Below, piece by piece: positions 20,594 to 32,076 of a stretch of DNA of 37,428 nucleotides. The position numbers and the translations under genes are program-made. The notes beneath the pieces were generated by a model, which was not told where the DNA came from, searched no databases, and saw only the letters and a list, made by a program, of their open reading frames with translations. This DNA comes from Clostridia bacterium (lineage in GTDB: Bacteria; Bacillota; Clostridia; Oscillospirales; Acutalibacteraceae), in assembly GCA_017521365.1 (NCBI GenBank), contig JAFXCT010000086.1:1-37428 (forward strand). Reading direction: 5' to 3'. Numbering within the stretch: position 1 is the stretch's first letter; every line of letters begins with the position of its first letter.

Positions 20594-20707
20594 AATGCAA
20601 AATGCAAAATGATAAATGCAAAATTAAGGGTCGCTTCGCTCCGATTTATAATGGGTGAGGGCGAAGCCCTCCCACAATTTTGCACTTTGCACTTTGCGTT
20701 TTGCATT
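20594..20707. repeat. MITE-like inverted-repeat element, copy 1
   Basis: A 114-bp palindromic unit. The outer 32-bp arms (AATGCAAAATGCAAAATG at the left, CTTTGCGTTTTGCATT at the right) are inverted copies with about 27 of 32 matching. The centre holds GGGTCGCTTCGCTCC and GAGGGCGAAGCCCTC. A second copy lies at 25872-25994. There is no coding capacity. It lies between the GH127 gene and the GNAT-like gene. Confidence 0.85.
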
Positions 20708-20762
20708 CACAACAATCTCAGAAATATTAAACAACTCTACATATTGAAAGGACGTAACCACT

Positions 20763-25066: not shown

Positions 25067-25423
25067 ATGAAGGTTTCCGAAATTATGAAAGTGCTTGATG
25101 CCGAGCTGGTTTACGGCGAGGAATTTCTCGACCGAGAGGTTCAATCTGCCTGCGGCAGCGATATGATGAGCGACGTGCTTGCATACGTTAAAGAGCAGGC
25201 TGTACTGCTGACGGGTCTTGTTAATCCGCAGGTTGTACGCACGGCTGAAATGATGGATATGAAGTGCATCGTTTTTGTCCGCGGCAAAAGCCCCGACCTC
25301 GGTATGATTGAGCTTGCCGAGGAGAACGGAATTCCCCTGCTCAAAACAAAGCGTGAAATGTTCACCTCCTGCGGTATTCTTTACGAAAACGGTCTGCGCG
25401 GCGGCGCACACAGACCCGAATAA
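25067..25423 (+). CDS. DRTGG-domain protein 1
   Basis: A 118-residue protein resembling a stand-alone DRTGG domain, a putative small-ligand sensor first noted in phosphotransacetylases and CBS proteins. The visible order is MKVSEIMKVLDAELVYG, the CGSDMMSDVLAYVKEQAVLLTG block, CIVFVRGKSPD and ENGIPLLKTKREMFTSCGILYENGL. It is first in an operon with an RsbW-like ATPase, a hydrogenase-like protein, a second DRTGG protein and a PHP enzyme. This gene association recurs in Clostridia, as far as I recall. GAAAGGAG precedes the ATG. Confidence 0.78.
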   Translation: MKVSEIMKVLDAELVYGEEFLDREVQSACGSDMMSDVLAYVKEQAVLLTGLVNPQVVRTAEMMDMKCIVFVRGKSPDLGMIELAEENGIPLLKTKREMFTSCGILYENGLRGGAHRPE

Positions 25424-25436
25424 GGAGGCGGAAGAT

Positions 25437-25862
25437 TTGTCTGATACGATTAAATTACACTACGACGTTGACGGCAGGGATTTTACCCGTGCAGGCGAAG
25501 CTTCGGGAAAAATCAAGAAAACGCTTAAGGATATAGGCTTTCCGCCCGAAGTTATCCGCAACACGGCAATTGCCGTTTACGAGGCGGAAATCAACCTTGT
25601 AATTCACGCAGGCGGCGGCGAAATCGACGTTGAAATTGCACCCGACTACGTTGAGGTTATTCTCACCGACCACGGCCCGGGTATTGAAAACGTTGAGCTT
25701 GCAATGCAGGAGGGCTACTCCACCGCCCCCGACCAGGTGCGTGCGCTGGGCTTCGGCGCAGGTATGGGCCTGCCCAACATAAAAAAATATACAGATGAAA
25801 TGAAAATTGATACCGTCCTTGGCGAAGGCACGGTTATGACACTTAAAATTTACGTTAAGTAA
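25437..25862 (+). CDS. Anti-sigma-factor-type ATP-binding protein (RsbW-like GHKL)
   Basis: A 141-residue GHKL ATPase of the RsbW/SpoIIAB class, which bind and phosphorylate partner proteins or act as switch kinases. It has the N-box-like AVYEAEINLVIHAGG, the G1-like LTDHGPGIENVE and the G2-like GFGAGMGLPNIKKYTDE. The start is TTG 25437 with AAGGAGG upstream; the longer frame from 25308 overlaps the previous gene and is rejected. No sigma factor or STAS antagonist is encoded beside it, so its partner is open. It may be one of the DRTGG proteins or the hydrogenase-like protein (inference). Confidence 0.85.
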   Translation: MSDTIKLHYDVDGRDFTRAGEASGKIKKTLKDIGFPPEVIRNTAIAVYEAEINLVIHAGGGEIDVEIAPDYVEVILTDHGPGIENVELAMQEGYSTAPDQVRALGFGAGMGLPNIKKYTDEMKIDTVLGEGTVMTLKIYVK

Positions 25863-25871
25863 ATTTTAAGT

Positions 25872-25994
25872 AAATGCAAAGTGCAAAATGCATAATGCAA
25901 AATTAAGGGTCGCTACGCTCCGATTATAATTTTATAACGGGTGAGGGCGTAGCCCTCCCACAATTTTGCACTTTACACTTTGCATTTTGCACTT
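25872..25994. repeat. MITE-like inverted-repeat element, copy 2
   Basis: 123 bp, the same family as 20594-20707, with arms AAATGCAAAGTGCAAAATG and CTTTGCATTTTGCACTT. The centre has GGGTCGCTACGCTCC and GAGGGCGTAGCCCTC. Compared with copy 1, T to A in the first motif is matched by A to T in the second, which keeps the pairing. It lies inside the hydrogenase-type operon, between the ATPase and hydrogenase genes. Confidence 0.85.
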
Positions 25995-26022
25995 CAAAAA
26001 TGCTGCAATTCAGGAGGAAGAA

Positions 26023-27321
26023 ATGTCAGACTTCTACCATTCCGTGCGGTTGGATTCGGAAAAGTGCCGTGGCTGTACAAACTGCATCAAGCGCTGTCCC
26101 ACGGGCGCAATCCGAGTGCGTGAGGGTAAGGCACATATAATCAAAGAGCGCTGTATTGACTGCGGTGAATGTATACGTGTGTGCCCGTACCACGCAAAAT
26201 CGGCCGAATACGATTCACTTGAACAGATACATAATTTCAAATACAAGGTTGCCGTGCCTGCGCCTGCGCTTTACGGCCAGTTCAATAATCTGGACGATGT
26301 TGACTACGTGCTGACCGCTCTTAAAAAGCTCGGCTTTGACGATGTTGTTGAGGTTGCGAAGGCGGCTGAGCTTGTAAGCGATGCGACGAGGAAGCTTTTT
26401 GAACAGGGTATGCTCAAAAAGCCCGTAATTTCCTCTGCCTGCCCTGCGGTTGTAAGGCTGATAAGGGTAAATTACCCCAACCTTATTGAGCACGTTGTGC
26501 CGCTGACCTCTCCTATGGAGGTTGCCGGCGGCATAGCAAGAGAAAAAGCAAAAAAGGACACGGGACTTGACGACAGCGATATCGGAGTATTCTTTATTAC
26601 GCCGTGCCCTGCAAAGGTAACTGCGCTCAAATCACCCGTCTGCCTTGAAAAATCCAATATCAACGGCGCAATTGCAATCAAGGATATCTACCCTGCCCTT
26701 GTTCACGAAATGAACCACCTTACCCAAACGCAGACCATAAAGGATTCGGGCGTTATCGGTGTCGGCTGGGCTACGGGCGGCGGCGAGGCAAATTCACTCC
26801 TCAAGGACAACTGCCTTGCGGCGGACGGAATTGACAACGTGATAAGTATTCTCAACGAGCTTGAGGACGAAAAGCTGCCCGATATAGAGTTTATTGAGCT
26901 CAACGCCTGCACGGGCGGCTGTGTCGGCGGTGCGCTGACTTATGAAAACCCCTACGTTGCAAAGGCAAGAATAAAGCGCCTGCGCAAATATCTGCCCGTT
27001 TCGTGCAACAGACTTGATACGGTACAGGTGCCCGACAATATGTTCTGGCACAAGGCACTTCAGGCAACCGACGTTATGAAGCTTGCGGATACCGTGCCCG
27101 AGGCAATGAGAAAAATGGCGCAAAAGCGTGAAATTCTCGACAAGCTTCCCGGTCTGGACTGCGGCACCTGCGGTGCGCCCTCGTGTGCGGCGCTTGCAGA
27201 CGATATAGTCAGGGGCTTTGCCTCGGAAAAGGACTGCGTCTTTATGCTGCGTGACCAGCTCAGCGGAGTTGACCGTGAGCTTATTCCTGCACCCTACAGA
27301 GCAAAAGAAAAGGACGAATGA
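26023..27321 (+). CDS. Divergent [FeFe]-hydrogenase-like protein, putative sensory type (group C/D)
   Basis: 432 residues. The N-terminus holds two [4Fe-4S] motifs (CRGCTNCIKRCP at 15-26, CIDCGECIRVCP at 44-55). The H-cluster domain keeps all four cluster cysteines: Cys140 (SSACPA, L1), Cys195 (TPCPAK, L2), and Cys296 and Cys300 (NACTGGCVGG, L3). Canonical enzymes read TSCCPxW, MPCxxK and MACxxGC. Here the proton-relay Cys is Ala139 and both Met positions are changed (Thr194, Asn295), as in the low-activity, presumed sensory groups. A C-terminal Fe-S domain has Cys380, Cys383, Cys388 and Cys405 (LDCGTCGAPSC). The start is ATG 26023 behind GGAGG; the frame from 25966 begins in the repeat. The likely role is redox or hydrogen sensing (inference). 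DRTGG protein 2 overlaps its end by 4 bases. Confidence 0.85.
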   Translation: MSDFYHSVRLDSEKCRGCTNCIKRCPTGAIRVREGKAHIIKERCIDCGECIRVCPYHAKSAEYDSLEQIHNFKYKVAVPAPALYGQFNNLDDVDYVLTALKKLGFDDVVEVAKAAELVSDATRKLFEQGMLKKPVISSACPAVVRLIRVNYPNLIEHVVPLTSPMEVAGGIAREKAKKDTGLDDSDIGVFFITPCPAKVTALKSPVCLEKSNINGAIAIKDIYPALVHEMNHLTQTQTIKDSGVIGVGWATGGGEANSLLKDNCLAADGIDNVISILNELEDEKLPDIEFIELNACTGGCVGGALTYENPYVAKARIKRLRKYLPVSCNRLDTVQVPDNMFWHKALQATDVMKLADTVPEAMRKMAQKREILDKLPGLDCGTCGAPSCAALADDIVRGFASEKDCVFMLRDQLSGVDRELIPAPYRAKEKDE

Positions 27322-27656
27322 TTATGACAGTAAAAACACTTATAGAAGAATTTTCGCTTGAGGTTCTCTGCGGCGCTGAGCTGGCAGAAAAAAAGCAAAT
27401 TACGGGCGGCTACTGCGGCGACCTTCTGAGCTGGGTTATGTCCAAGGCCAAAGAGGGTGACTGCTGGCTGACCGTTATGGGTAACGTAAACTCCGTGGGC
27501 GTTGCCGTGCTTGCCGACGTTGCCTGCATACTGCTCACCGAAAACGCCGTGTTTGACGATGATGCTCTCACCCGTGCAAAGCAGAACGGCGTAATAGTTC
27601 TCCGCTCGGCGGAAAGTGCATTTGACCTGGGCGCAAGGATTGCAAAGCTGATATGA
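27318..27656 (+). CDS. DRTGG-domain protein 2
   Basis: A 112-residue second member of the DRTGG-like family, diverged from the first. The order VKTLIEEFSLEVLCG, KKQITGGYCGDLLSWVMSKAKEGDCWLTVMG, ILLTENAVFDDDALTRAKQNGVIVLRS follows the same fold plan, and here the GGYCGDLLSWVM motif is better kept. The start at ATG 27318 overlaps the hydrogenase-like stop by 4 bases; ATG 27324 is an alternative two codons in. Its end overlaps the PHP gene by 4 bases. The tight coupling suggests a fixed ratio of products. Confidence 0.8.
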   Translation: MIMTVKTLIEEFSLEVLCGAELAEKKQITGGYCGDLLSWVMSKAKEGDCWLTVMGNVNSVGVAVLADVACILLTENAVFDDDALTRAKQNGVIVLRSAESAFDLGARIAKLI

Positions 27657-28363
27657 GCCTGTTTTACGATTTTCACATTCACTCCTGCCTCTCCCCCTGC
27701 GCCGAGGAGGATATGACACCGTACAACCTCGTAAACCTTTCGGCAATTATGGGTATGGAGGCTATAGCCCTCACCGACCACAACTCCTGCCAGAACTGCG
27801 GTGCGGCTATGCGGGCAGGCGAGCAGGCAGGAATAACCGTAATTCCCGGAATGGAGCTTTGCACCTGCGAGGAGGTACACGTTGTGTGCCTTTTTGAAGA
27901 GCTGAAAGCGGCAGAGGAATTTTCCGACCTTGTTTTGCGCGGTGTTCCGCAGATTAAGAACAGACCCGAAATTTTCGGCACACAGTTAATAATGGATGAA
28001 ACCGACAATATACTCGGCGAGCAGGAAATATTGCTAACCACGGCGAGCAGTATTTCAATTGACAGCGTTGAAAAATTAGTTGACGGCTACGGCGGAGTGT
28101 GCTATCCTGCACATATAGACCGAAGCAGCTACAGCGTTATTTCAAACCTTGGTATGATAACCCCCGAAATGGGCTTTGAGGTTGCGGAGGTTTCGCCTAT
28201 GGGCGACATGCACGCCTTAAAAGAAAAATTTCCCGTGCTGAACGATATGAAAATTCTCACCTCGTCCGATGCTCACAGGCTTGAAAGCCTGCGTCCTGCC
28301 GAGCTGAGCCTTCACACGGAAAACAACATAAAAAGCATTATCAGGCATTTGAAAAACAGATAA
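27653..28363 (+). CDS. PHP-domain metal-dependent phosphoesterase
   Basis: A 236-residue PHP hydrolase. The metal-binding motifs are DFHIHSCLSPC (His8, His10), ALTDHNSCQNC, PGMELCTCEEVHVVCLF, CYPAHIDRSSYS and TSSDAHRLESL, the usual trinuclear metal set. PHP enzymes of this size hydrolyse nucleotides, oligonucleotides or histidinol phosphate; the substrate cannot be read from sequence. Translation is coupled to the second DRTGG gene by a 4-base overlap. A nucleotide second messenger or 3'-phosphorylated nucleotide as substrate would fit a signalling operon (inference). Confidence 0.88.
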   Translation: MSLFYDFHIHSCLSPCAEEDMTPYNLVNLSAIMGMEAIALTDHNSCQNCGAAMRAGEQAGITVIPGMELCTCEEVHVVCLFEELKAAEEFSDLVLRGVPQIKNRPEIFGTQLIMDETDNILGEQEILLTTASSISIDSVEKLVDGYGGVCYPAHIDRSSYSVISNLGMITPEMGFEVAEVSPMGDMHALKEKFPVLNDMKILTSSDAHRLESLRPAELSLHTENNIKSIIRHLKNR

Positions 28364-28380: not shown

Positions 28381-29295
28381 ATGAAAAAGGGACTTTGTAT
28401 TCTGCTCGTTTTCGCCGTAATTTTCTGCCTTGCGGCCTGCGGCAAGAACGGCAACAAGGGCGAAATTTACACACCGCCCTACACGGAGGTTATAACCTTT
28501 GAGGACGGTGAAACCGCAATTTACGAGGTTATGACGGATGCCGAGGGTGAGCCCGTAACGGACAGCGAGGGTATAACCGAGCTCGTGCCCTACGACCCGC
28601 CCGTAACCGAGGACGGCGGCTATCTTGTAACAACCCCCGAGGGTGAAACTATCAAGCAGTCACAGACAACTGCCGCACAGAGCGTAGAGGTTGATTACGA
28701 TATTATCGACCTTGAAACAACTGTACCCGCCGCAAACGAAACCACAGCAAAAACAGACGCAACAACCAACAAGGAAGAAACCACCACTATCCCTGCCGAA
28801 ACCACGGCAAAGGCTGACGGCGGTGCACTCCAGACACCCGACACTGGCAATGAGCCGACAACGCTCAAGGAAATTCCCGAAGGCGAAACCTATGCGCTAA
28901 GCGGCACGCTTTCAAAGGAGGACGCACAGAAGCTCGTCGGCATACTCAACATTCCCAACCCCTTTGACGAAGCACTTGCTTCGGGCGATTTCTACCTTGC
29001 AGAGGAAAAGCTTCCCGACTACCTTGCAAGCATTGAAAACGCAGTAAGACGCATAAAGGAAGACAAGAAGCTGTACAAATACGTAGGCAATCAGAATCTG
29101 CAGATGTGGTACGACTATATGGTTGAGGCCGCTGACAGATACGCCGTGTTTATGGGCGTTGTAAGAGGTACGGAGGGTGAAAAGCCCGGCAAGGCCTTCT
29201 TCGCAACCTACGAGGATTTCCAGAATTACTACCGCTTCTCCCTGCAGGTTTATTACCATATGCAAAACGGTGCGGAAAGAATAATGTATTCGTAA
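28381..29295 (+). CDS. Lipoprotein with acidic repeat linker
   Basis: Family not recognised. A lipoprotein signal peptide ends LAAC with Cys at residue 20. Residues about 35-100 carry a VMTDAEGEPVTDSEG-type repeat like that of the protein at 2957-3979, followed by a Thr/Ala/Glu-rich linker (about 110-165). The last 125 residues are helical in character (KLPDYLASIENAVRRIKEDKKLY, MWYDYMVEAADRY, FQNYYRFSLQVYYHM). It starts 17 bases after the PHP gene with AAAGGAAAGAG upstream and may be the last gene of that operon. A functional link is unproven. A hairpin array and a terminator follow. Confidence 0.82.
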   Translation: MKKGLCILLVFAVIFCLAACGKNGNKGEIYTPPYTEVITFEDGETAIYEVMTDAEGEPVTDSEGITELVPYDPPVTEDGGYLVTTPEGETIKQSQTTAAQSVEVDYDIIDLETTVPAANETTAKTDATTNKEETTTIPAETTAKADGGALQTPDTGNEPTTLKEIPEGETYALSGTLSKEDAQKLVGILNIPNPFDEALASGDFYLAEEKLPDYLASIENAVRRIKEDKKLYKYVGNQNLQMWYDYMVEAADRYAVFMGVVRGTEGEKPGKAFFATYEDFQNYYRFSLQVYYHMQNGAERIMYS

Positions 29296-29733: not shown

Positions 29734-31749
29734 TTACTTATTTACCGACGTTTTGCTTTTTGCTTTTTCTTCCTTTTCTTTTTCTGCCTGCTTACCTGCC
29801 CTGATACCGAGCACAGCGAGAATACCTGCAAACACCGCAACAGCTATAAGACCGGGGAAGAAGCCTGCGCCGAAAGCACCTGTTGTGATAAGTGTACCAA
29901 TCTGGTAAACAAGGAAGCCGACCGTAAAGCCTGTACCGAGCTGAAGTCCGATACCTGCAAAAAGCCATTTTGCACTTTTGAGCTCGCTGTTCATTGCGCC
30001 GATTGCCGCAAAGCAGGGCGGTGAATAGAGGTTGAACATAAGGTATGCAAGGGCGGCAACCTTTGTAATTGCCATAACGCCTGCAACCTCACTGCCTGCA
30101 CCTTCCATCATTGCAAGTTCTTCCGTGTCGATAAGATTCTCAAGTCCTACAAAGCAAACCGCAAGAGTACCGACAACGTTTTCCTTTGCAATAAAGCCTG
30201 TAACAGCAGCTGCTGCAAGCTGCCAGGAGAGAACACCGACAACGGGAACAAGAAGATAAGCAAACGGGCCTGCGATTGAAGCGAGGATTGATGTGTCTGC
30301 AGTTTCGGCAGGAGTAAAGCTCCAGGTAAACGACTGCATAACCTGAACGGCTGTGTTGCAAAGCAGAATAATCGTAGCCGCCTTTATAACGTACTCCTTG
30401 CCGCGGCTGAGCATAGCCATTGTTGCTCTGCCAAGGCTCGGTAATTTATACTCGGGCAGTTCAATAATGAAGAACGACCTTTTTGCGCCTGCGCCCGTAA
30501 TTTTATTGATAACGAGTGCGCCGAAGAAAATTATTGCTATACCCACAAAATACATCAGCGGACCGACCCACGAGGCATCCTCAAAAAATGCGCCTGCAAA
30601 AAGGCCGATTACGGGCAGCTTTGCACCGCACGGCATAAAGGGCGCAAGCAAGGCTGTTGCCCTGCGCTCACGCTCGTTGCGGATTGTGCGGCAAGCCATA
30701 ACGCCGGGAATTGCACAGCCCGTGCCGATAACGAAGGGAATGACGGATTTTCCGCTCAAGCCTACCTTTTTGAAAATCGGGTCAAGCACGACGGAAACAC
30801 GTGCCATATAGCTGCAATCCTCAAGCAGAGCAATAAGGAAGTACATAACCATAACAAGCGGCAGGAAGCCGATAACGGCAATTACGCCGCCGATTACGCC
30901 GTCAACAAGCAGGGCGTAGAGAAGCGGATTGGCGTTTGAAAGCATACCGCCTACCCATTCCTGACCCTTTTCGAGCACAGCGGTAAGCCAATCGGCAATC
31001 CAAACACCGGGACCTGCCTGCGAAATCCAGAAAACGAGGAACATTACAACGGCGAAAATCGGTATGCCGAGAAATCTGTTTGTAAGCAGGGCATCTATTT
31101 TATCGTGAACGTTTCTTTCTCTTGTGAAAACCTTACGCTTTTCAACTGACCTGACAACACCGTTTACAAACTCAAAGCGTCTTCTGTCCGCCGCCTTGAC
31201 GGATGCCTTGTCGGAAAGGTTCACGCCACCGTCGATATACGGAGCCTTCTGTCCCCTGCCGACAAGCTCAACAGCCGCCGCAACAACCTCTTCCAGACCC
31301 TCGCCGGTGGTGGAAACGGTTGTAACTACCGGACAGCCGAGTTTAGCCGAAAGAGCCTTTGTGTCAATATCGGTTTCCTTCCTTTTGTTGATATCTGTCT
31401 TGTTGAGGGCAATGACAACGGGTATGTTGAGCTCAAGAAGCTGAGTCGTGAAGAAAAGGCTTCTGCTTAAATTCGTTGCATCAACTATGTTAATAATAAC
31501 ATCGGGCTTTTCGTTCTTTATGTAAGTGCTTGTAACGCTTTCCTCCGAGGTGAAAGGCGACATTGAGTAAGCGCCGGGCAGGTCAACTGCCGTAAGCGCC
31601 GCACCGCTGTATAAACTTTTTCTGACAGCGTGTTCCTTTTTGTCAACGGTAACGCCCGCCCAATTACCGACCTTTTCACTCTGACCGGTAAGAGCGTTGT
31701 ACATCGTTGTTTTGCCGCTGTTCGGGTTTCCTGCCAAAGCTATACGCAC
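29734..31749 (-). CDS. feoB: Ferrous iron transport protein B
   Basis: Membrane GTPase for Fe(II) uptake. The 671-residue protein has a G domain with G1 GNPNSGKTT (residues 7-15), G2 around WAGVTV, G3 DLPGAYS and G4 NKTD. A polytopic membrane part follows with the Gate motifs (GVIGGVIAVIGFLPLVMVMYFLIALLED; GTGCAIPGVMACRTI) and a lysine-rich tail. I chose GTG 31749, which gives the usual MRIALAGNPNSGKTT start and lies 8 bases after GGAGG; GTG 31758 touches the ribosome binding site. It lies downstream of feoA with an iron box between them, and upstream of the Cys-rich protein. Confidence 0.96.
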   Translation of the reverse strand: MRIALAGNPNSGKTTMYNALTGQSEKVGNWAGVTVDKKEHAVRKSLYSGAALTAVDLPGAYSMSPFTSEESVTSTYIKNEKPDVIINIVDATNLSRSLFFTTQLLELNIPVVIALNKTDINKRKETDIDTKALSAKLGCPVVTTVSTTGEGLEEVVAAAVELVGRGQKAPYIDGGVNLSDKASVKAADRRRFEFVNGVVRSVEKRKVFTRERNVHDKIDALLTNRFLGIPIFAVVMFLVFWISQAGPGVWIADWLTAVLEKGQEWVGGMLSNANPLLYALLVDGVIGGVIAVIGFLPLVMVMYFLIALLEDCSYMARVSVVLDPIFKKVGLSGKSVIPFVIGTGCAIPGVMACRTIRNERERRATALLAPFMPCGAKLPVIGLFAGAFFEDASWVGPLMYFVGIAIIFFGALVINKITGAGAKRSFFIIELPEYKLPSLGRATMAMLSRGKEYVIKAATIILLCNTAVQVMQSFTWSFTPAETADTSILASIAGPFAYLLVPVVGVLSWQLAAAAVTGFIAKENVVGTLAVCFVGLENLIDTEELAMMEGAGSEVAGVMAITKVAALAYLMFNLYSPPCFAAIGAMNSELKSAKWLFAGIGLQLGTGFTVGFLVYQIGTLITTGAFGAGFFPGLIAVAVFAGILAVLGIRAGKQAEKEKEEKAKSKTSVNK

Positions 31750-31775
31750 CCGACACACCTCCTAAATATACCGTT

Positions 31776-31830: not shown

Positions 31831-32052
31831 TTATATATCAAAAACCCGTATCGCCTGTGACAGCTGACGGTCGATACAATATCTGCTGTCCTTGACCGAC
31901 ATAACGCAGGTATTGCGCTGACGGGCAATAACCGTTACAGGCTCACCGCTGTAGCAGCCGAGGGAAAAGAGGAAATCCTCAAGCTCTCCGTCGTCCGTTT
32001 CAATGCGGTCTATTATGTATTCTTTTCCTTCCTGTGCCGAAAAAAGAGTCAT
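31831..32052 (-). CDS. feoA: Ferrous iron transport protein A
   Basis: A 73-residue SH3-like partner of FeoB. The order EGKEYIIDRIETDDGELEDFLFSLGCYSGEPVTVIARQRNTCVMSVKDSRYCIDRQLSQAIRV matches FeoA, with the LGCYSGEPV region and the final ID(R)QLSQAIRV strand. I chose ATG 32052, behind AGGAGAAAGG; the frame opening at 32076 starts inside the iron box. It leads the feo operon behind an excellent promoter whose start region carries an iron box, so repression by an iron-bound regulator is expected. Confidence 0.92.
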   Translation of the reverse strand: MTLFSAQEGKEYIIDRIETDDGELEDFLFSLGCYSGEPVTVIARQRNTCVMSVKDSRYCIDRQLSQAIRVFDI

Positions 32053-32076
32053 AGCCTTTCTCCTAAATACAATCAA

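Follow-up and report, generated by a model that had tools for sequence, protein, structure and literature searches.

Group D (M2e) [FeFe] hydrogenases, among them TamHydS of Thermoanaerobacter mathranii, are regarded as putative H2 sensors with low catalytic rates (PMC8163306, PMC13104023). In the portions of these accounts available to us, TamHydS turns over H2 (PMC8163306), changes its secondary structure with H2 (PMC13104023) and is flanked by an AraC regulator (PMC8163306), and M2e hydrogenases are described as adjoining kinases and bifurcating hydrogenases (PMC3561251, PMC3608648, PMC8163306, likewise in their available parts), with M2e loci listed for Clostridium thermocellum and Thermoanaerobacter (PMC3561251). 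Here we describe a five-gene operon built around such an enzyme, at 25067-28363 of the window, by which we mean the whole analysed stretch of 37,428 nucleotides (1-37,428) from contig JAFXCT010000086.1 of a Clostridia bacterium of the Acutalibacteraceae (GCA_017521365.1). The unit is genuine, occurs widely and is closely conserved, and at its core is a sensor that is known but not yet understood; its recurrence in many relatives, often beside a larger hydrogen-making enzyme, suggests that it probably serves to control the balance of hydrogen and electrons. An earlier note, made from the DNA sequence alone, held that the association was known and its circuit not worked out, which was a fair statement: the link to a kinase and HydABC is already in print (PMC3561251, PMC3608648, in the parts available). 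The two DRTGG proteins and PHP as partners, the natural fusions, the variants with Rnf and the joint inheritance of the parts were encountered neither in the available portions of the TamHydS accounts nor elsewhere in the literature that we searched, which also gave no description of the five-gene unit; Calusinska 2010, outside that literature, may describe parts of it. DRTGG and hydrogenase were co-mentioned only for an unrelated protein, and the terms sought for the unit were not found in a C. thermocellum proteome paper.

All five genes lie on the plus strand. DRTGG1, a partner protein (25067..25423, 118 aa; Pfam DRTGG 37.4 bits, cut-off 25.2), is followed by a SpoIIAB-type GHKL ATPase (25437..25862, 141 aa; HATPase_c_2 42.5 bits, cut-off 27.4), whose start is most likely the TTG at 25437, with an AAGGAGG stretch just ahead of it. 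Then come the HydS-type group D hydrogenase, hereafter HydS-D (26023..27321, 432 aa; Fe_hyd_lg_C 118.5 bits, cut-off 22.1, together with Fer4 and FeS); DRTGG2, a paralogue of DRTGG1 (27318..27656, 112 aa; Pfam DRTGG 25.8 bits, barely above the cut-off of 25.2); and a PHP metallophosphoesterase (27653..28363, 236 aa; Pfam PHP 36.8 bits, cut-off 26.4). Overlaps of 4 bases (ATGA steps) join the hydrogenase to DRTGG2 and DRTGG2 to the PHP gene. The earlier note had read five consecutive plus-strand genes, the last three with 4-base overlaps, and had assigned them to two DRTGG proteins, a GHKL ATPase, an FeFe protein and a PHP enzyme; the arrangement is confirmed at these coordinates and the families are upheld by Pfam scores above cut-off.

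The window hydrogenase is almost certainly a group D (M2e) member. It has two N-terminal 4Fe-4S sites (cysteines 15, 18, 21, 25 and 44, 47, 50, 54), four H-cluster cysteines (140, 195, 296, 300) and a C-terminal Cx2Cx4Cx16C site at C380-C405. In CpI numbering, it displays Ala at the C299-equivalent and Thr at the M353-equivalent, where the TamHydS work, in its available part, sets the absence of Cys at 299 and the presence of Ser/Thr at 353 as the marks of group D (PMC8163306). We compared 152 loci: the window, 71 loci from a sample of the class, and 80 named loci that are the best of at least 570 relatives, i.e., close kin of the window and not a random draw. Across these, the H-cluster ligand positions are Cys in 152/152, the C299-equivalent is Ala in 136/152 and the M353-equivalent is Thr or Ser in 151/152. 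A Pfam scan of the window hydrogenase returned no match to the PAS domain that would point to group C. Further, when 65 proteins were placed in a tree, a branch (100/100) separated the 23 rows of group D (the window and 22 random ones) from 14 HydA proteins of group A, 7 of group B and 21 of group C; we assigned proteins to A, B or C by their profile, motif and length, and the rows include neither TamHydS nor another named group D protein.

The likeness to TamHydS, as far as it is described in the available parts of PMC8163306 and PMC13104023, extends to the domain order, the Cx2Cx4Cx16C site, the loss of C299, the change of M353 to Ser/Thr, conserved Arg, Lys and Asp residues around the clusters, a GHKL-type neighbour, and a frequent location beside the bifurcating HydABC; the M497-equivalent differs, being Leu in TamHydS and Asn in the window hydrogenase. 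Eight TamHydS residues are conserved in >75% of 70 group D enzymes (R30, R32, K35, K58, D378, E392, D393 and D403; PMC13104023, in its available part), and seven of them are identical in the window hydrogenase at an offset of +1, with E392 replaced by Asp; R42 is also kept and S384 is not. None of the TamHydS proton-path residues S249, E252, D265 and E289 matches at the offset of +1. At an offset of +3, reflecting an indel in an alignment read by eye, three acids match the conserved E255, D268 and E292, which may be the equivalents of the proton-path acids, and S249 again has no match. The active-pocket residues appear to bear out the proposal of the earlier note that this is not a bulk H2 producer.

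These residues also bear on the view that the locus encodes a minor metabolic hydrogenase and its assembly set, with the GHKL protein as a chaperone ATPase, the PHP and DRTGG proteins as assembly factors, and no sensor. GHKL ATPases do include chaperones, and the PHP enzyme has an unusual invariant cysteine (Cys16, discussed below). Nevertheless, we consider this view very improbable: group D has lost the residues that form the proton path in group A (PMC8163306), with C299 lost in the window hydrogenase as well, and TamHydS was produced heterologously and activated by means of a synthetic cofactor, no partner genes being named in the available text of the same paper.

The unit is preserved over a considerable phylogenetic range. 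Counting as orthologues hydrogenases scoring >=325 bits (the next whole-length matches reach 153 bits), we found HydS-D in 72/148 evenly drawn genomes of the class. In the phylum, the hydrogenase is present in 120/299 sampled genomes. Below, L, G, f and C with a number denote a locus, a genome, a family and a contig, respectively. Leaving the window aside, 57/71 class loci keep the order DRTGG1-GHKL-HydS-DRTGG2-PHP. Of the 14 exceptions, seven are cut by contig ends (L033, L034, L050, L081, L100, L102, L103), six retain DRTGG1-GHKL-HydS with the remainder incomplete (L036, L039, L041, L063, L071, L072), and L089 (G140) retains GHKL-HydS-DRTGG2-PHP. Among the named loci, all partners are present in 74/80 and in the same order in 71/80. 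The median intergenic gaps within the unit range from -4 to 34 bases. At the phylum level, where 20 loci were chosen from the 120 genomes and genes were called by an open-frame method, 15/20 have five separate genes in order and one more (L238) has the same arrangement with a fusion; by these calls L237, L248, L252 and L253 are without one or more parts, as are L256, L257, L258, L260, L261 and L263 among ten more loci that were included for their long frames or as second copies. Thus, the recurrence in Clostridia that the earlier note had anticipated is borne out, and the co-occurrence check on the five families that it had proposed has yielded a conserved neighborhood.

Gene content tells the same story. 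With thresholds of >140 bits for PHP, >140 bits for GHKL and >130 bits for DRTGG1 (DRTGG2 was not searched with a profile of its own), PHP is found in 70/72 class genomes with HydS-D as against 0/76 without it, GHKL in 70/72 as against 1/76, and DRTGG1 in 70/72 as against 1/76. A 49-bit DRTGG match at a contig start ahead of hydABC in G065 was excluded from the DRTGG1 count. The two PHP exceptions are G071, in which a contig cut leaves a 29-residue PHP start visible, and G037, in which the gene is absent; the GHKL and DRTGG1 misses (G049, G084) are due to cut contigs, and the one HydS-D-less genome with both genes (G132) has a contig that ends at the GHKL stop codon. GHKL2, the second ATPase, which belongs to the hydABC operon, follows the same pattern, occurring in 71/72 genomes with HydS-D and 8/76 without it, fragments included. 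The corresponding Fisher values are <1e-38, which is an overstatement because the genomes are related. As the conserved order shows, the five-gene grouping is not a chance one; as judged from gene content, HydS-D is hardly ever inherited without GHKL, DRTGG1 and PHP. Two copies of HydS-D were observed in G165, G310, G334, G358 and G428; the second copy of G165 (L261) has DRTGG and hydABC-like genes nearby, with no GHKL, DRTGG1 or PHP seen in its vicinity.

Natural fusions, as predicted from the open frames, tie the parts of the unit together. In L248 (G374), a single 626-aa frame combines GHKL (14-143) with HydS (154-574), followed downstream by DRTGG and then hydC, Fd, hydB and hydA, with no DRTGG1, PHP or GHKL2 seen nearby. 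HydS is joined to a C-terminal DRTGG within a single frame in L238 (G179) and in L255 (G256), two members of family f94. A scan of the first 152 loci yielded no fusion; all three come from the phylum loci, which were picked partly for long open frames. The kinase and the sensor are probably physically coupled. Where the unit is split, DRTGG1-GHKL-HydS stay together, and DRTGG2-PHP lie with hydABC on another contig in G021 and 4-5 genes downstream in G082 and G110, all three of family f26 and perhaps representing one event; in G010, PHP alone lies with hydABC. G015 was dropped from this count: its hydrogenase and DRTGG2 are both at contig ends, which probably reflects an assembly break.

The wider neighborhoods point to ferredoxin- and NAD-linked redox enzymes. 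hydB or hydA lies within 9 kb (<=9 kb) in 47/71 class and 43/80 named loci, and hydC or GHKL2 follows PHP within three genes in 46/64 class and 22/69 named loci, with a divergent hydC or GHKL2 upstream in 2 class and 16 named loci. An rnfC gene lies downstream on the same strand in 8/71 class loci, directly after GHKL2 in three of them (L086, L087, L099), and Rnf-like genes, recognized by gene sizes and weak profile matches, follow Fd2 in L239, PHP in L245 and DRTGG in L258; the Rnf family models were run on L087, L089 and L099. Altogether, L086, L087, L089, L099, L239, L245 and L258 display the unit followed by Rnf genes, instead of or alongside those of HydABC. Control of HydABC by the unit is, in our judgment, moderately probable, and the reading of the circuit as a whole stands only slightly above even, both being held at this level because G015 is no clear split and the three others belong to one family. 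As a side observation, the unit and GHKL2 in L093 (G111) and L095 (G056) precede proteins of 975 aa and 745-749 aa, with no HydABC in the stretch read; in L093, these are of the molybdopterin hydroxylase and the Fe-S flavoprotein type, respectively.

Beyond the HydABC and Rnf associates, the next commonest neighbor family occurs in only 12/152 loci. Eight neighbor families were scanned, and seven gave a Pfam match: a 2-hydroxyacid dehydrogenase, a class V aminotransferase, two Rnf parts, C_GCAxxG, SPOR and a radical-SAM protein; there was no regulator, STAS or PP2C domain among the scanned recurrent families of the 152 loci. As no transcription factor was seen as a member of the unit, the output is perhaps exerted at the protein level, for which we would put the chances at a little under even. 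The same sensor might instead have a transcriptional output: the GHKL protein would then be an anti-sigma or partner-switch kinase whose target is a STAS protein or sigma factor encoded at an unlinked locus, and hydABC would be among the controlled operons. The closest named families, SpoIIAB and RsbW, are both anti-sigma kinases, an AraC regulator flanks TamHydS (PMC8163306, in the part available), and group C loci carry a SpoIIE-type phosphatase, which is another partner-switch component. Given that no regulator family recurs beside the 152 loci, where the search did not extend to unlinked STAS proteins, we regard this alternative as unlikely. Two apparent neighbors were set aside: the f11 family, tried as NfnAB, comprised pyrK, pyrD, an rRNA methylase, a pseudouridine synthase and a sulfatase-maturase-like protein in the instances scanned, and a GGDEF-EAL protein after PHP in L057 was judged an ordinary neighbor. 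A gene of similar length follows in L065 of the same genus.

The ATPase that the earlier note had called RsbW-like is indeed of the GHKL switch type, with the qualification that its nearest named model is SpoIIAB (53.5 bits, NCBIfam equivalog cut-off 135) and RsbW comes second (27.7 bits, cut-off 145). Its near-invariant motifs are a YExExNxxIH box, DxGPGI, EGYSTA and a GFGAGMGL lid; the Tyr, both Glu and the His of the N-box are present in 147/147 rows and the Asn and Gly boxes (N, G1, G2) are conserved at 1.00. The N-box Glu has a role in such switch kinases, and we presume that the GHKL protein is the protein kinase of the unit. In DRTGG1, Asp32 and Ser35 are each present in 129/129 clustered rows, and these are the only D/S/T/Y/H/E columns at >=98.5%; the row of the window falls outside the cluster because of an overlapping frame, yet agrees at both positions. 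Likewise, Asp35 and Ser38 of the Asp35-x-x-Ser38 motif in DRTGG2 are each found in 132/132 clustered rows and are the only such columns at >=98.5%. The D-x-x-S common to both paralogues is hence a candidate phosphorylation or binding site.

In the PHP enzyme, the predicted metal ligands His8, His10, His43, Glu68, His76 and His154 are conserved in 138 or 139/139 rows, and Asp206 and His208 in 137/139; the unusual invariant Cys16 lies within the first metal-binding loop. In predicted fold, it lies nearer to the PHP enzymes that act on nucleotides and nucleic acids than to those acting as tyrosine phosphatases. Single-sequence searches of solved structures were discarded in favor of profile searches, the top matches being evidently due to chance: ubiquitin chains for GHKL, with SpoIIAB lower, and myoglobin for PHP, with PHP enzymes lower. 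PHP is seemingly the most dispensable part of the unit, being absent from G037 with the other four present and not seen near L248 and L258, which speaks against its erasing an essential signal; the fold comparison weighs the other way. The dispensability also weakens a mechanism in which the DRTGG proteins bind a nucleotide, PHP removes it and HydS sets its level or reading: the unit has no nucleotide-making enzyme, the PHP fold reveals no substrate, and G037 would have lost the removing activity with the rest in place. We therefore deem a nucleotide signal improbable.

Taking these threads together, the best reading, to which we give a narrow preference, is that of a redox- or H2-sensing hydrogenase gating a serine-kinase-like switch that acts on HydABC. 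Briefly, H2 or reduced ferredoxin would reduce the H-cluster or the 4Fe-4S chain of HydS, whose shape would then change; this change would switch the GHKL kinase, which might phosphorylate the invariant Ser of the DRTGG partners, with PHP undoing or limiting that phosphorylation. The DRTGG2/PHP arm, along with GHKL2 of the hydABC operon, could then adjust the activity of the neighboring ferredoxin/NAD redox enzyme, i.e., HydABC in many genomes and Rnf in some. Of the interpretation in the earlier note, a conserved hydrogenase-based unit with a switch-type ATPase across Clostridia, distinct from a bulk producer, stands; its reading of the circuit, in which H2 rather than the redox state of ferredoxin/NADH might be sensed and passed on by phosphorylation or by a nucleotide signal, remains an inference.

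The earlier note had remarked on the want of maturation and electron-transfer partners, which holds for the operon and not for the genome: HydG and HydE are encoded on C45 and a hydC-GHKL2-Fd-hydB-hydA operon on C39. More broadly, HydG is present in 55/72 genomes with HydS-D and 42/76 without it, and in 14 of the 17 HydG-less HydS-D genomes HydE and HydF are also not found over cut-off (G084, G023, G015, G098, G011, G101, G140, G083, G111, G134, G056, G020, G063, G128), G083 having a sub-threshold HydE. The sensor might then respond, via its 4Fe-4S clusters, to the redox state of ferredoxin rather than to H2, the H-cluster being optional; this is compatible with a gated kinase switch, whose input is left open. 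The maturase-less set includes the single-contig genome G063 as well as G140 and G083, which have no other PF02906 match at E 1e-10, and Rnf follows the unit in some loci. Conversely, the four H-cluster cysteines never vary (152/152), TamHydS turns over H2 (PMC8163306, as available), and HydA in four of the maturase-less genomes keeps all its motifs, suggesting that the maturases were missed or that another route or replacement exists. Nor is the loss special: HydG is absent from 44/139 genomes with PF02906 at the same threshold, which weakens maturase loss as a mark of group D genomes. Pocket residues do not separate the genomes with and without maturases, the K358-equivalent being Arg in 4/14 without maturases and 3/54 with HydG, and the C299-equivalent being Asp in 4/14 of the former and in the others mostly Ala, as elsewhere. 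On balance, pure ferredoxin sensing appears rather unlikely, if less so than a transcriptional output.

Returning to the hydrogenase-gated kinase switch, several observations weigh against it. In 14/72 genomes the missing maturases make an H-cluster, and hence H2 sensing, doubtful. The GHKL protein scores above no NCBIfam equivalog cut-off, and no STAS protein, on which kinases of this type usually act, was seen among the recurrent neighbors scanned, a search that did not extend to unlinked STAS proteins. In the genome of the window itself, HydABC is on a different contig from the operon; hydC or GHKL2 is not close behind PHP in 18/64 class and 47/69 named loci, and in the 46 class loci that do have such a follower, it is sometimes GHKL2 accompanied by Rnf or other genes. 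G037 lacks PHP, in G052 PHP stands alone, apart from hydABC, and the DRTGG1 of G140 is on another contig (C82, L212), where it adjoins a second GHKL of the family, distant from the hydrogenase. Finally, a tally of recurrent neighbors could overlook regulators that belong to many different families, and the relatedness among the genomes inflates the counts. The question of how the signal is passed on is directly testable, given a kinase candidate, two DRTGG partners that each have a single invariant Ser, a PHP enzyme and the three fusions seen in nature. It is also of ecological relevance, as many of the 80 named loci are by title from rumen or gut genomes, where the H2 balance shapes fermentation.

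Some features of the window lie outside the unit. The MITE-like palindromic repeat of 141 bp between GHKL and the hydrogenase (25866..26006) is an insertion and is not part of the conserved module; it has 49 matches in its own genome (some being the same places on the opposite strand), about 10 of them near full length, and another copy is at 20594-20712. Directly 3' of PHP, 28381-29295 encodes a 304-aa lipoprotein-like protein with no Pfam or NCBIfam match, and the minus strand carries, by appearance, putative FeoB (29734-31758, 674 aa) and FeoA (31831-32076, 81 aa) proteins for ferrous iron transport.

With the known switch kinases SpoIIAB, RsbW and RsbT, the last of which the window protein presumably also resembles, GHKL shares the HATPase_c_2 fold, the Glu and Asn of the N-box and a small single-domain size. 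It departs from SpoIIAB and RsbW in scoring below their cut-offs, in the lack of a sigma factor, STAS or PP2C protein seen in the unit, and in its fusion to a hydrogenase in one genome. The regulatory [NiFe] hydrogenases with the PAS-bearing kinase HoxJ (PMC8163306, in its available part) similarly use a low-rate hydrogenase as the input of a kinase, although both the metal enzyme and the type of kinase differ, and no response regulator was seen at the group D unit. A further parallel is the group C (M2f) HfsB/HydS with the serine phosphatase HfsC (PMC11837493, in the part available), a putative H2 or redox sensor likewise tied to Ser/Thr-type signaling and metabolic hydrogenases. In our data, a gene of 380-398 codons adjoins the 555-595-aa group C hydrogenase in 19/20 loci, as recognized by length; the two scanned (L191, L204) encode a SpoIIE phosphatase domain, the L191 hydrogenase gives a PAS_8 match, and the arrangement fits HfsB-HfsC of Thermoanaerobacterium (PMC11837493, again in part). 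Group D has no PAS domain and, in place of an adjoining SpoIIE-type phosphatase, a SpoIIAB-type ATPase with a DRTGG pair and PHP. By our own comparison, groups C and D would thus accompany opposite sides of one kind of switch, the phosphatase in the case of group C and the kinase in that of group D. We tentatively extend this to a more speculative proposal: the unit might be a portable protein-level governor of ferredoxin/NAD enzymes, in which a serine kinase with a hydrogenase input writes on DRTGG and PHP erases, HydABC or Rnf is the target, and 4Fe-4S redox chemistry suffices where maturases are wanting. If so, the unit would be a counterpart, of the kinase type, to the group C sensor with its SpoIIE-type phosphatase.

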